Both the position numbers and the translations under genes were made by a program. 64,000 nucleotides of DNA, taken from Cyclobacteriaceae bacterium (GTDB taxonomy: Bacteria; Bacteroidota; Bacteroidia; Cytophagales; Cyclobacteriaceae). The notes under the pieces were generated by a model, which saw only the letters and a program-made list of their open reading frames with translations, searched no databases and had not been told where the DNA came from. This document shows, one piece after another, positions 7,463 through 56,795 of this stretch (position 1 is the first letter of the stretch; every line of letters begins with the position of its first letter). The DNA lies in contig CATQIH010000001.1 of the NCBI GenBank assembly GCA_958296015.1, forward strand, positions 124,001 to 188,000, read 5' to 3'.

Positions 7463-8542
7463 ATGAAAGGAACGAACACAAATCGCCTTATCGGTCAAGT
7501 CATCATCCTGGCAGTATCTCTGTTATCAACAATGGCCGCCTGTCAAACTGCATCCAGAGAGTTTAGGATCAAGGATATGGGTAAGGACTATTCATTGCCT
7601 ACCGGAAAACTGGTGAAGGGTCTCTACCATCATATCGAGCAGGACGATGATGTGATCGGGGGCAATACCAGTATTCGAAACGTGGATGCCAAAGACTTAG
7701 AATGGAAGGGCAATCCCAATGGCAATGGATATGGATATTTTGAGCGTAACCGGGACCTGGGCCAGGTTTTTACCATGCCCAAGAACATGAACGTAACATT
7801 AGATGCACTGGTACTGAGGACTTCCAGGGGGAACAACGCCATCATGAATGGCACACCTGGCGCAGCACTTTATATCGTTTTTTATGAGGTTAAAACCAAA
7901 AAGGGGGAGCAGGTGAGCATCAACGAAAACGGAACCACCAAAGGCGATCAGGCCCTGCATGGCTTTGACCTACAATTCAATAGGGCAGATGATTTTATAG
8001 AGGGGGCTACGTATGTTTTCCTTGATCGTTTTACAGGGGGCATCTTTCCGGAGATAGCACCCACTTCGCAATATGTGTACGATAATGGAAAGGGTGGGTC
8101 GTTTGGAGAGCAAAAAGGTCACCTCCACTATTTTAGATGCGATTTTTTAAAAGATGCCGAAATTACCCTGGAGGCGGGCAAAACCTATGCCTTTATGATC
8201 GGGTTTTCCCAGCCGGGCGATGCCAGGGGGCTGGCCCTGGCCATAGATTCGGAAGTACATACCAAAGAAGCGGCTGCCTTTGTAAGAGACGAAAACGGAG
8301 CAATCCGCTGGGGTATTCGGCGCGAAGGTAATGGTACTATTCCACCAACCATGATCAGCCAAAGTGCCCCCCCAAAAGAAAAAACCGAGTCATACAACGA
8401 ACTGGTTTCGGAGTCTTTATTCCCAAAAGATCATGATGAAACCCTGACACCTACCAGCAATGGTTACCCGGATGTGGACACCTACAGAACGCTTCAGTTT
8501 TATTTAGAGATAAAAGATATGGTACTCATTAATGATAGGTAA
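7463..8542 (+). CDS. Hypothetical secreted/lipoprotein-like protein
   Basis: 359 aa, N-terminal hydrophobic segment ending in ...TMAAC; no family recognised. Confidence 0.6.
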   Translation: MKGTNTNRLIGQVIILAVSLLSTMAACQTASREFRIKDMGKDYSLPTGKLVKGLYHHIEQDDDVIGGNTSIRNVDAKDLEWKGNPNGNGYGYFERNRDLGQVFTMPKNMNVTLDALVLRTSRGNNAIMNGTPGAALYIVFYEVKTKKGEQVSINENGTTKGDQALHGFDLQFNRADDFIEGATYVFLDRFTGGIFPEIAPTSQYVYDNGKGGSFGEQKGHLHYFRCDFLKDAEITLEAGKTYAFMIGFSQPGDARGLALAIDSEVHTKEAAAFVRDENGAIRWGIRREGNGTIPPTMISQSAPPKEKTESYNELVSESLFPKDHDETLTPTSNGYPDVDTYRTLQFYLEIKDMVLINDR

Positions 8543-8611
8543 CCATTGGCATGTTATTGTACGTTTTTGCTATTATATGCTTCGCTCAGAATAAAGCCTT
8601 GTATCGTCCAT

Positions 8612-8713
8612 TATACTACGGTACAGTTTCGGTTTGTGGAGACACAAACCGAGGCGCGAAGGCCGTGGGCTGTGTCCTCACAGCCCACTTTAAGCCAAAT
8701 GTACCGTAGTATA
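8612..8713 (+). mobile_element. MITE-like element copy A (102 bp)
   Basis: TIRs TATACTACGGTACA...TGTACCGTAGTATA; flanks ATCGTCCAT (8603-8611) / ATCGCCCAT (8714-8722), 8/9 TSD. Confidence 0.92.
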
Positions 8714-9091
8714 ATCGCCCATATAATCAAAAATATAAGCCGGTTGCCGAGCGTTTAAAAAGCTTTTTGTATTAAATATCCATCACAGACTAGGATAAGG
8801 TAAAATTTAACTTAGTTTTAACCAGGTACTACAATATAAGACATTGGATTACAGAAAACCTATGAAACAAGATAAGCTCTATGACTTGAGGCAGATGTTG
8901 TTCTTAGAGGCTCAACGAGAACTCCTCAAAGACTTTGCGTAACTCTTATAAAAGGGTTTTTAAACAAATCTACTGTTTGTTTTGTAACAATTGTTGTTAT
9001 GGCTCCGTTGTTTCATAGATTTTTACAAACTCACCATTTGATTGCAAAACTATTGAGGCGTATAACCGATACCCAACATCCTTTAGAAATA

Positions 9092-12000
9092 CTACGTCTG
9101 CATACGTTTAAATTGGTTGGAGTATTCTGATGGGGGCATGCCAAACTGCTTCAAGAAATTGCGACCAAAACTTGTTTGGGAGTTGTAGCCTACCATATTT
9201 GTTATTTCGTAGATTTTATAATCCCCTTCTGTCAATAGTTCTGCCGCCTTTTTCAGTCGTGCTAGGTTGATCAGTTCGTTGGGCGTTAAATCAGAAATAG
9301 CTTTGATTTTTCTGTACAAGGTGGTTCGGCTCATGTTCATGATGTCAGCGAGCTGTTCAACATTCAAGTCCGTATCAGTGATGTTCCTGTTGATCGCTTC
9401 ATGCAACTCTTCCAGAAAATGTTCATCAGCTTTGGAATAGGCCATGCTTTTTATATGAGCCAGCGGAGAGCTGGAAAAATATTCTTTGATTTTGTGCCGG
9501 TTGGCCAACAGGTTGGCAATCTGTACCCGCAGGTGTTCAGGAGAGAATGGCTTGTCCATATAGGCATCGGCACCAGATTCAAGCCCTTCAATTTTGGCCT
9601 GTAGGGTGTTTTTTGCTGTAAGCAGAATGACTGGAATGTGGCTGTACTCGAGGTTGGATTTTATTTGTTTGCACAACTCAAAACCATCCATTATTTTCAT
9701 CATCACATCGCTGACGATCAATTGGATACATTCCTTGCTGAGAATCTCCAAAGCTTTTTTTCCATCAGCAGCTCTGAAGACCAGGTACTCCGCCTGTAGT
9801 TCTCCGCAGACAAACTCCAGCATTTCCTTGTGATCTTCCACCACCAGGATGGCGGGCTTCATAGGCCCTTTGGTTTCTTCCTGGTTATGGTCAGCATCAG
9901 GAGTTTCTGTGGGCTGCTCCTCATACAAATTAAACTCATGTTCCTGGTGTATGGGCAGTGTAAGCACAAAGATATTAAATTCCTTTGCCGGGTCTTTCAA
10001 GATCAGCGTTCCTTTATGTAACTCTGCCAGCGAACGCGAGAGGGGTAGCCCTATGCCAGTGCCCGTTGTGTCTTCGGTTTCTTTGAGCCGAAAAAAGGGG
10101 GTGAATATATTTTCTCTGGCTTCGGCAGGAATAAGAAGTCCGTCGTTTTTTATCTCCATGACGAAGAAATTATGCTCGGCCCCGGCAGAAAACAAAGCAA
10201 TGTGGACTTTATTTTCGGCATACTTAACGGCATTGTTCAACAGGTTACTGATGATCTTGGTAAGGGCTTCCGGATCTACGTAGGCTATCACAGGAATCTC
10301 CGGAAGATCCATGCTGAAAATCAGGTTTCTCTCTTCGGCAGCATGTTTGAATCTGGAGTAAATATCTTCGGACAATTGAGATATATTTGCGCTGACAAAG
10401 GTAAGACTGAAACCCTTGGTTTCTGTTTTTCGGAAATCCAGTAGCTGATTGGAAAGGTCCAGCAGACGGTTGGTGTTTTTCTCCATCACAGTAAGGCTTT
10501 CTTTGATCTCCGGTAAGCCTGTCGTTGTATTGATCAACTTTTCCAGGGGGCCTTTGATCAGAGTAAGTGGAGTACGTATCTCATGAGCTACATTGGTAAA
10601 AAACTCAATTTTGGCTTCATAGATTTCCCGTTCTTTCTGGTTTTCAAGCAGCTTTATTTTTCTCTTGTTTTTGCGTTCTGCTTTGTGGTGGTAATGGCGC
10701 ACCCCGGCATAACAGCAAACCATTCCTATTGCTGCATAAATAAGATAAGCCCAGGTACTGGCCCAAAAAGGAGGCAGAATCTCTATCATGAGGCTGGTAA
10801 CTTTGTCATTCCAGATGCCGCTACTATTGGATGCCCTTACCATAAAAGTATATGTTCCAGGTGCCAGCTCGGTAAAATAGACCCTTCGGTTTGTCTTTAG
10901 GTAAATCCAGCCTTCCTGTAGCCCCTGCATTTTGTAGGTATAGGCCGTCATCTCGGGTGCCGTATAACTGAGTGCCGCAAAATCGATACTAAAAGAAGAC
11001 TGATGATGGTTTAAAGTGATTTTCTTGGTATAGGTTAGCGATGAAGTGAGCGGTGAACTTCTTTTGCTGATCGGTAGCTCAAGGTTATACACCTGAAAAC
11101 CAGTAATACAGATGGGTGGAATGTAAGTGTTGGTGATGAATTGCCGGGGGTTAAAACGAATCATCCCATTCACACTTCCAAAATACAGGTTGTCTTGCTG
11201 GTCTTTGTAAGAAGAATTGTAATTAAACTGATCGCTCAGCAGCCCCTGTGCCTTGGTAAAGGTTTTTACTTCTTCAGACACAGGGTCGAAGCGCACCAGC
11301 CCTTTGGAAGTACTGATCCAGAGCTTCTTATCTGCATCTTCCAGCACCTGGTAAATAACATTGCTGGGAAACCCATTGCCAGTGGTATACCTTGTAAATT
11401 GTTTGCGCTGCGGTACAAATTTGCACAAGCCACCTTCGGTAGAAAACCATAAATTTTCTCTGCTGTCTTCGTAAATATCTGTTACGGCATTACTGATCAG
11501 ACTGTTTTGGATGTCATCTTTATGTTTTAGATAACCCTTTTTTCCGGTATTCGGGTCATAATAGTAAATCCCGTCTCTGTAGGTGCCCGCCCATATGGTG
11601 CCTGTATGATCCTCCAGCAAAATGGTATAATGAAAAACTTCGGGAAATTCTGAGAGCAAAGTAAAATTATCGCTTTTGCGGTTATAGCGGTGCAATCCTA
11701 AAGCCGTACCAATCAGGATATCTCCCGAATGGGTTTGAAGCATCGTATAAATAAAATTGCTTTTCAACGAGCCTGGAGCCGCCCCCGCTGTGTAGTGGCG
11801 GATGATTTTACCACTGCGTATATCCATTACATCCAAACCGTGTTCAAAAGTGCCAATCCATAGCTCCTGGCCGACAGCCAGCAGTCCGTGAATATTGTGG
11901 TGGGCCAGGCTGTTTTTTTCTTTGGAAGGCTGAAAGCTCGTAAAATGCCCTGTCGCAGGATTCATCTTATTCAAACCTGCATCCTCTGTTCCTATCCATA

Positions 12001-13081
12001 CGTTGCCAAACTGGTCCTGACATATTTCGCGGACAGCATTTCCGCTGATGGCATTTTCACCTGCCTTGGGAAAAAACTTCTCGAACGGTGTATACTGTTT
12101 AGGGCTATAGTTGGCACCACCAAAATACGTGCCTGCCCAAATGCCCCCTTCCCTGTCCTTGTACAAAGAGTATACAGCATTGTCTGAGATGGAATATGGG
12201 TCGTTATAGTTCTTCTCCAGATTGGTAACCTTGCCTGTTTTCAGGTTGTAAATAAAAATCCCGGATTCAGTGGCAAGCCAGTATTCGTTGGCATCGCTTT
12301 GTATAAAATCTCTGACGTATAGCTCCGACTTTTTGCAGTCAACGGGAAGCACATCCTGGTAGGTAGCTGTTGGAATATCAAAAACTTTCATCCCCTGGCT
12401 TTGTGTGCCTGCTAAGATGGACTGGTTGCCCGTGCTGTAAATCTTCTCAATCCATCGGGAAGAGGTGGGTGCAGACTGGCCGAAAATATCAAACTTTTTG
12501 AAAGAGTCGTTGGCAGCATCATATCGGTTGATCGTTCCTGCATTGGTAGAGACCCAAATGGTTCCGTCGGGAGTAACACAGATAGAGGTTGCATCAAAAT
12601 ATTTGTTGGAATCGTAAGCTTGCAGCAATTGCTTGCTTTCACGATACCTGTAAAGCGTATAACCAGCAATAAACCATAGATTGCCCGCCTGATCTTTACA
12701 AATGGCCCTGACTTTATTATTTAGTGTCTGCTGAAGCAGGATGAATTTTTCATCCTTTGCCTTGTACTTGTACAACCCATTGTCGGTTCCTACCCATAGC
12801 TGCCCTTCCTGCTCATACAATGTCTGAATAAAATTGCTGCCAATGCTTCCAGTATCTTCCGCATCATAGCGAAATACCTTAAAAGAGTAGCCATCAAATC
12901 TGTTAAGTCCGTCCTTTGTGCCCAACCACAGGAAACCCTGCTGATCTTGCAAAACGCTCATCACAGAGTTGTGAGAAAGCCCGTTCTCTACCTGGTAATG
13001 TCTGAAGTAATAAGGTTGTCCACAGAGGGTATTACTTACATATAATAAAAGCGGAAAAATGAAAAAGACAGCTTTTTTCAT
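9092..13081 (-). CDS. Hybrid two-component system regulator (HTCS): Reg_prop propeller, Y_Y_Y, HisKA/HATPase, REC, AraC HTH
   Basis: 'HYQVENGLSHNSVMSVLQDQQGFLWLGTKDGLNRFDGY', 'FFTNVAHEIRTPLTLIKGPLEKL', 'ILVVEDHKEML', C-terminal AraC. ORF extends to 13144, but MKKAVFFIFPLLLYV (signal peptide) at 13081 is the likelier start. Confidence 0.93.
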   Translation of the reverse strand: MKKAVFFIFPLLLYVSNTLCGQPYYFRHYQVENGLSHNSVMSVLQDQQGFLWLGTKDGLNRFDGYSFKVFRYDAEDTGSIGSNFIQTLYEQEGQLWVGTDNGLYKYKAKDEKFILLQQTLNNKVRAICKDQAGNLWFIAGYTLYRYRESKQLLQAYDSNKYFDATSICVTPDGTIWVSTNAGTINRYDAANDSFKKFDIFGQSAPTSSRWIEKIYSTGNQSILAGTQSQGMKVFDIPTATYQDVLPVDCKKSELYVRDFIQSDANEYWLATESGIFIYNLKTGKVTNLEKNYNDPYSISDNAVYSLYKDREGGIWAGTYFGGANYSPKQYTPFEKFFPKAGENAISGNAVREICQDQFGNVWIGTEDAGLNKMNPATGHFTSFQPSKEKNSLAHHNIHGLLAVGQELWIGTFEHGLDVMDIRSGKIIRHYTAGAAPGSLKSNFIYTMLQTHSGDILIGTALGLHRYNRKSDNFTLLSEFPEVFHYTILLEDHTGTIWAGTYRDGIYYYDPNTGKKGYLKHKDDIQNSLISNAVTDIYEDSRENLWFSTEGGLCKFVPQRKQFTRYTTGNGFPSNVIYQVLEDADKKLWISTSKGLVRFDPVSEEVKTFTKAQGLLSDQFNYNSSYKDQQDNLYFGSVNGMIRFNPRQFITNTYIPPICITGFQVYNLELPISKRSSPLTSSLTYTKKITLNHHQSSFSIDFAALSYTAPEMTAYTYKMQGLQEGWIYLKTNRRVYFTELAPGTYTFMVRASNSSGIWNDKVTSLMIEILPPFWASTWAYLIYAAIGMVCCYAGVRHYHHKAERKNKRKIKLLENQKEREIYEAKIEFFTNVAHEIRTPLTLIKGPLEKLINTTTGLPEIKESLTVMEKNTNRLLDLSNQLLDFRKTETKGFSLTFVSANISQLSEDIYSRFKHAAEERNLIFSMDLPEIPVIAYVDPEALTKIISNLLNNAVKYAENKVHIALFSAGAEHNFFVMEIKNDGLLIPAEARENIFTPFFRLKETEDTTGTGIGLPLSRSLAELHKGTLILKDPAKEFNIFVLTLPIHQEHEFNLYEEQPTETPDADHNQEETKGPMKPAILVVEDHKEMLEFVCGELQAEYLVFRAADGKKALEILSKECIQLIVSDVMMKIMDGFELCKQIKSNLEYSHIPVILLTAKNTLQAKIEGLESGADAYMDKPFSPEHLRVQIANLLANRHKIKEYFSSSPLAHIKSMAYSKADEHFLEELHEAINRNITDTDLNVEQLADIMNMSRTTLYRKIKAISDLTPNELINLARLKKAAELLTEGDYKIYEITNMVGYNSQTSFGRNFLKQFGMPPSEYSNQFKRMQT

Positions 13082-13312
13082 ATCATTGGTCATACGGTTA
13101 AAGGTAAAGTAATCACTTCTACAAAACGTTCCAGATATGTGCATTTTGTCTCAAATATCCTCTGAAACAGAAAAAAAATAGCATTGGAACGAATTGTAGA
13201 AACTATGGTATGAATTGACATCTACTAAACACAATAAATAATTAGGTTTAGAAAGTTGATGAAAAAATCAAAAACATACAAAGAACCTATTACCACAAAA
13301 CCATGACGAAAA

Positions 13313-31314: not shown

Positions 31315-31420
31315 TATGCTAGGGCACATTTCAGATTTGTGCGTCCGCGTCCCGGCGGGGAACCGCACCACCGCAGGCTGTGTATTACAGCCCACTTTCA
31401 GGCAAATGTACCGTATTGTA
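31315..31420 (+). mobile_element. MITE-like element copy E, diverged subfamily (~106 bp)
   Basis: Left end TATGCTAGGGCACATTTCAGATTTGTG and right end GCCCACTTTCAGGCAAATGTACCGTATTGTA resemble copies A-D; degenerate 9-bp flanks TAATACTAC / CAGTACTAC (7/9). Confidence 0.75.
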
Positions 31421-39901: not shown

Positions 39902-40457
39902 CGTTTGATATCCGGTTCCTGAAAGTGTGACGGTGTCTTCATGAAAATTATACTGAAGATTGTTGATATAACTCACAGAGCGTATCTTACTGGTGGTGTT
40001 CAGTTTCACTTCAGTACCGTCCGGAAGGGTAAGCATAGCAAAGACACACTAAGCTAATACTGGCGGCAGTGCCCAGCCAGCGACGGGTCTTTTGTTGCTT
40101 CACCGGTAGATTCTCAGCTTTCAGGGCGTCTATTCTTTGATTGAGTTGTTGTTTGGCTACGTTGAGGTTAAAAGTATACTACGGTACAGTTTCGGTTTGT
40201 GGAGACACAAACCGAGGCGCGAAGGCCGTGGGCTGTGTCCTCACAGCCCACTTTAAGCCAAATGTACCGTAGTATAGGTTAAAAGACCTGCTGTTTTTCG
40301 TTCCCAGGCAGATATTTTTGAAGATTACAGATTCTTCCGAATGTACTTTTTTCCAATACTCCAACACCACAAGCTCATCTTTGTCAGGTTGATGAGATAG
40401 GTGTTTGCTAACGAGTAGGTAGATTTCGTGTTGTGACATAGAAATGTTATTCTTCAC
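39902..40457 (-). pseudogene. FecR-family anti-sigma factor remnant, interrupted by MITE copy C and internally deleted
   Basis: N-part ...FKNICLGTKNSRSFNL continues after precise removal of the MITE and one TSD as NVAKQQLNQRIDALKAENLPVKQQKTRRWLGTAASISLVCLCYAY; then out of frame LTLPDGTEVKLNTTSKIRSV...TVTLSGTGYQTK* (FecR-like LPDG.EV.LN). Confidence 0.8.
40175..40276 (+). mobile_element. MITE-like element copy C (102 bp)
   Basis: Identical to copy A; perfect 9-bp TSD GGTTAAAAG (40166-40174 / 40277-40285). Confidence 0.95.
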
Positions 40458-56255: not shown

Positions 56256-56362
56256 TACAATACGGTACATCGCCTGAAAGTGGGCCGTGCTGGGCACCCC
56301 CTGCCAACGTGCGGTTCCCCGCCGGGACGCGGACTCACAAACCGGAAATATACCCTGGTATA
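56256..56362 (-). mobile_element. MITE-like element copy F, diverged subfamily (~107 bp)
   Basis: Ends TACAATACGGTACAT / ATATACCCTGGTATA; shares GTCCGCGTCCCGGCGGGGAACCGCAC with copy E; degenerate 9-bp flanks TTGATTTTC / TTAGTTTTC (7/9). Confidence 0.75.
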
Positions 56363-56408: not shown

Positions 56409-56795
56409 TTTAAATCCGACTTCAAAACTTAACAGGTGATACTTTTGCCGCTGATATTGGCTTAAATCTCCCCGTAGCTTATTGGTTAAGCTGTATTCTA
56501 TACTACGGTACAGTTTCGGTTTGTGGAGACACAAACCGAGGCGCGAAGGCCGTGGGCTGTGTCCTCACAGCCCACTTTAAGCCAAATGTACCGTAGTATA
56601 GCTGTATTCATAGCGGCAACTCAGCAAAAGCCTCTCTAGTTTTAAAGACAGTTCGACAGGCAAAACCGGTACCATGCGTTTGTAGTGGTGGTTGAGCACA
56701 ATCAGAGGATACATAGCAGCCGGGCCAAACCCGAAGCCACCTATGAGAACTTTGGGATTGGTTGTTTTGTCGTAGTCCGGTAAGAAAAGCTTCAC
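56409..56795 (-). pseudogene. 3' remnant of an ORF interrupted by MITE copy D
   Basis: Removing the MITE and one TSD joins ...LKLERLLLSCRYEYS to LTNKLRGDLSQYQRQKYHLLSFEVGFKLP* in frame. Confidence 0.65.
56499..56600 (+). mobile_element. MITE-like element copy D (102 bp)
   Basis: Identical to copy A; perfect 9-bp TSD GCTGTATTC (56490-56498 / 56601-56609). Confidence 0.95.

Follow-up and report, generated by a model that had tools for sequence, protein, structure and literature searches.

A 102-bp palindromic element in a Cyclobacteriaceae genome is probably a modular MITE of an IS4-like insertion sequence

The 102-bp element at positions 8612-8713 of the window (the whole 64-kb stretch of DNA analysed) is, judged from sequence and with a probability of roughly 0.9, a non-autonomous MITE of an IS4-like insertion sequence (IS) in which a palindromic interior takes the place of the transposase gene. 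It consists of perfect 14-bp ends, two perfect 10-bp hairpins and no gene, and an 11-bp stretch lies between hairpin B and the right end. Its parts, its target duplication and its relatives in the window are as follows:

8603-8611, no strand, target duplication, left copy, 9 bp, ATCGTCCAT
8612-8625, + strand, left terminal inverted repeat, TATACTACGGTACA, the identical 14 bp being found on a 1,213-bp IS
8629-8652, + strand, hairpin A, TCGGTTTGTG-GAGA-CACAAACCGA, 10-bp stem, with stand-alone relatives
8653-8664, + strand, 12-bp linker, GGCGCGAAGGCC, pairing as a 3-bp arm only on the - strand
8665-8688, + strand, hairpin B, GTGGGCTGTG-TCCT-CACAGCCCAC, 10-bp stem
8700-8713, - strand, right terminal inverted repeat, 14 bp, perfect match to the left end
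8714-8722, no strand, target duplication, right copy, ATCGCCCAT, differing from the left copy at one position
23008-23109, - strand, identical copy, exact duplication GAAGTAAAC
31315-31420, + strand, old, degenerate copy, 3 and 2 mismatches in its ends, folding at chance level
40175-40276, + strand, identical copy, exact duplication GGTTAAAAG
56256-56362, - strand, probably an old and degenerate copy, lying 136 bp ahead of the one at 56499, 2 and 3 mismatches in its ends
56499-56600, + strand, identical copy, exact duplication GCTGTATTC

The outer 14-bp stem and the two 10-bp hairpins described in the first-pass annotation were confirmed, coordinates included. The predicted RNA fold reached -61.2 kcal/mol (z -10.5) on the + strand and -57.0 kcal/mol (z -10.1) on the - strand, with none of 200 shuffles as stable in either case, and 80/102 and 74/102 bases were paired, respectively; DNA parameters gave a z of -10.5. 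The proposed cloverleaf with a short GGC/GCC arm held for the - strand, where this arm is part of the minimum-energy fold, and failed for the + strand, where the GGC of the linker pairs elsewhere and hairpin A is stacked on the outer stem. Searches of Rfam and for tRNAs with the element gave no match to any family or tRNA.

The window genome, a 5.9 Mb draft in 66 contigs, contains 11 identical copies of the element (four of them in the window, at 8612, 23008, 40175 and 56499), five copies with 99% identity across 101 bases and numerous degenerate relatives. The mobile-element frame of the earlier annotation stood: 9-bp direct repeats flank all 16 near-identical copies, 13 of them exact and three with one mismatch (the copy at 8612 among the latter), the register of the duplication having been set by eye for the five copies with a differing last base. 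A TA duplication of the Tc1/mariner or IS630 type, which the TATA ends had brought to mind, was rejected because the target duplications are 9 bp long. Two deletion derivatives of 64 and 71 bp (L034:1141-1204 and L035:506-576) have kept both ends and the 9-bp duplication. Among 396 genomes of the order, a single one besides the window genome contained the ends extended by three bases, and none besides it did among 399 drawn from the phylum; the exact form is thus rare.

A search with the ends retrieved the 1,213-bp IS in two copies in the window genome, with the identical 14 bp at both termini and, for one of the copies, an exact 9-bp duplication, ATCGAGCAC. The transposase frame is broken identically in both copies (L068 on C11 and L069 on C26), so an active source is not seen in the assembly, and the common disruption means that either a broken copy was mobilised or an intact copy is concealed in the assembly. 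Botryobacter ruber has two relatives of 1,190 bp that are intact, share these ends and lie between exact 9-bp duplications; they encode 371-aa proteins with 65% identity to the broken home transposase over 379 positions and a DDE_Tnp_1 domain (PF01609). The best curated match of the 371-aa protein was the IS4 model at 133.9 bits, below the cut-off of 152, and the partner is therefore labelled 'IS4-like' only. The IS4 motif is Y-(2)-R-(3)-E-(6)-K, and YGYRYRIETMFKHLK in the translations of the partner IS fits it. A search of the named genomes with a transposase fragment found no related loci. The partner appears to be an IS4-like insertion sequence of Cytophagales. A 2.9-kb span at L031 had also been considered as the autonomous partner and was discarded, as its genes are of IS110 type and lie within a MITE: at L031:970-3863 (C7:186469-189362) IS110-type (DEDD) transposase genes interrupt a MITE copy in its hairpin region.

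The element and the IS thus have in common their ends and the length of their duplications, and the element is short, lacks a transposase gene and is present in several copies; the shared ends and 9-bp duplication are what point to a MITE of an IS4-like IS. An IS4-like DDE transposase would recognise the 14-bp ends, its insertion would leave the 9-bp target duplication, and the common ends and duplication length suggest that the partner transposase moves the MITE. Among known IS-derived bacterial MITEs, Correia/NEMIS, RUP and Nezha (PMC3733652) are likewise short, geneless, bounded by inverted ends of larger IS, flanked by target duplications and potentially strongly folded; they differ from the present element in its IS4-like partner, its 9-bp duplications and its palindromic interior, which has stand-alone counterparts and is exchanged between genomes. 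BrickBuilt of Porphyromonas gingivalis (PMC4596501) likewise belongs to the MITEs of Bacteroidota, contains an inserted module of repeats and is predicted to form stem-loops, but its interior is a tandem 23-nt minisatellite, its ends are of IS5 type and its duplications are of inconsistent length.

Both hairpins of the MITE are versions of one palindrome, GGTYTGTG..CACARACC, with a 10-bp stem, which also occurs alone in the genome. The pattern GGTTTGTG-loop-CACAAACC was found at 27 places in the window genome, most of them within MITE copies, and GGTCTGTG-loop-CACAGACC at 23 places outside MITE copies, with no control hits for either; both patterns also occur in further genera of the order. 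Outside the MITE, such hairpins are single, paired or arranged in alternating arrays, such as the six GGTCTGTG hairpins with a period of ~100 bp and no MITE ends at C3:73001-73272 (L087:2502-2773), a tandem layout resembling that of a BIME. The stem is exactly 10 bp long, as in both MITE hairpins, in 21 of 30 stand-alone hairpins, a set that includes mutually dependent array members and at least two hairpins (L095 and L096) that adjoin degenerate ends and may be MITE remnants. Their outer pairs, left free in a search that fixed the inner eight pairs only, vary in matched combinations (CA/TG, AA/TT, CC/GG and GA/TC).

This short, palindromic, interspersed, paired and alternating arrangement is shared with the REP/BIME/REPIN sequences that accompany RAYT transposases (PMC2817692, PMC3116915, PMC6006769), and the element could accordingly be a doublet of REPs spread by an IS200-like RAYT transposase and not an IS-derived MITE. 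Y1_Tnp genes are indeed present in the window genome, and the GTGG..CCAC of hairpin B resembles 'double foot' REPs (PMC6006769). However, the GTAG/GTGG tag was beside 0/30 stand-alone hairpins, and none of the nine Y1_Tnp loci inspected in the window genome is a RAYT gene flanked by hairpins, hairpins lying within 1.5 kb of only one of them, a partial gene adjoining a MITE copy. The 9-bp duplications of the element also contrast with IS200/IS605-type elements, which make no such target duplications (PMC2817692). With neither tag nor partner gene found, the REP/RAYT assignment of the hairpins was dropped, and we regard a REP doublet as extremely unlikely. At the locus with the partial gene (L085:1276-1791 on C46), the RAYT-like frame runs into the MITE copy, which possibly hit or formed its 3' end. 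Some IS elements use REPs as targets (PMC1525189). IS110 relatives are known to do so, and the IS110-type genes inside the hairpin region of L031, a single case, may be a similar insertion.

The same ends enclose other palindromes elsewhere in the order. In the Cytophagales assembly YX1bin7 (G107), six elements (L143, identical to L183, and L154, L155, L158, L164 and L166) contain CCTCACCCC..GGAGAGGGG palindromes, and a 115-bp element (L184) has the interior GCCACAAAG..CTTTGTGGC; a 101-bp element in G120 (L141) contains CGCGGAAGT palindromes and has one mismatch in its duplication. The elements of both assemblies are flanked by 9-bp duplications, and in most of them the ends are 0 to 1 mismatch away from those of the window element. 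Across the three genomes the interiors are unrelated in sequence, and the elements fold with z -6.9 to -10.5. In G107 the CCTCACCCC palindrome is also found by itself (L188, L191, L196 and L199), with no element ends within 4 mismatches in each 3-kb locus. Fixed ends combined with different palindromic interiors indicate that the MITE is modular, its interior being, on these comparisons, exchangeable. The remark in the first-pass annotation that there is more structure than transposition alone needs fits these data, as the hairpins form an additional module that occurs by itself in the window genome and gives way to other palindromes elsewhere. The direction would have been one of capture, the IS ends taking up palindromes that already existed, and not of spread from these ends. 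The open-access literature, outside which most subscription journals fall, yielded no match for MITEs with captured palindromes.

Conservation of the pairing was analysed in 12 distinct arm sets from the window genome, whose relatedness was uncontrolled. Standard pairs made up 94.6% of the pair cells, and the covariation score was above that of nearly all shuffles in this set of uncontrolled relatedness. Matched double changes were present at two pairs of stem A and at none of stem B, and 9/12 arm sets carried at least one mismatch. Divergence from the consensus was lower in the arms (22/520 sites) than in the linker (22/156; Fisher p 5e-5), a difference with p 0.054 once three copies with indels were dropped. 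In two old copies, L033 and L039, both stems had changes that were uncompensated, one of the observations that the first-pass annotation had named as refuting its reading. Younger copies keep their pairing well, though not for ever, and the degenerate copy at 31315 folds with a z of 0.08. Hairpin loops span 3 to 65 nt and the long ones are G+C-rich, which suggests slippage at extruded hairpins; at L031:8016-8200, L033, L037, L038 and L047 the loops are enlarged by segments of 17-65 nt that are G+C-rich and in part palindromic.

Once transcribed, the hairpins might lend stability to mRNA, take part in its processing or terminate transcription, functions that have been suggested for other MITEs in bacteria, and the very stable fold on both strands, the mostly intergenic location of the copies and the lower divergence of the arms are in line with such a function. 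No intrinsic terminator (a G+C-rich stem followed by a T run) was present in 8300-9100, which leaves the terminator role offered by the first-pass annotation without support, and the Rfam search was equally negative. According to a simple reading-frame caller, the gaps holding the 16 near-identical copies are tandem in 10 cases, convergent in four and divergent in two, the class of one divergent gap being uncertain as a long frame overlaps the copy (L012) with its 3' part; such a spread gives no pointer to gene 3' ends. The copy at 8612 is approached from the right by a convergent gene (9092-13144, - strand) for a hybrid two-component protein with Reg_prop repeats, HisKA, a response regulator and an AraC-type HTH. 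The suggested role in RNA processing or stability found no support in copies that occupy all gap types and an old copy without a fold, and the uncompensated changes of L033 and L039 in both stems, as well as those in 9/12 arm sets, also speak against it. Because no terminator was found, the gene gaps are mixed and the old window copy at 31315 is unfolded, a host RNA role for the hairpins is unlikely, and we consider it very improbable that these hairpins are kept for an action on mRNA or transcription. Pairing that is kept in young copies and lost with age is in better agreement with a role in the life of the element itself, or with passive inheritance.

Most plausibly, the structure matters at the DNA level or was simply inherited from captured palindromes. 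If active at all, the hairpins would act as DNA, as a cruciform or as hairpins on single strands during replication, rather than as an RNA device; cruciform formation, another suggestion of the earlier annotation, is possible. As cruciform arms or single-strand hairpins they could bring together the ends of so short an element or expose them to the transposase, the interior then being selected for its shape and not its sequence. This would agree with fixed ends around unrelated yet palindromic interiors in three genomes, with loop lengths that hint at slippage on extruded hairpins and with the covarying outer pairs of the stand-alone hairpins. We nevertheless hold such a transposition function to be possible but rather unlikely: the partner IS moves without such hairpins, the pattern is equally accounted for by palindromes that are common and were captured passively, and L034 and L035 have duplications but not the full hairpin pair, although these may be later deletions. 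A further conjecture, to which we give a small chance, is that IS4-like ends repeatedly acquire host-common palindromes across Cytophagales and that hairpins in a shape-selected interior help the ends to meet in DNA below its stiffness length.

As a kind of element, the MITE described here is known; what is unusual is its modular interior, swapped between fixed ends, and this exchange is the part worth following. It shows how palindromes that otherwise stand alone can be carried by a DDE transposon. A long-standing question is whether the structure seen in bacterial MITEs is of use to transposition, of use to the host or of no use, and the same ends with different hairpin interiors form a natural series, so that one transposase combined with swapped interiors can put this question to the test.
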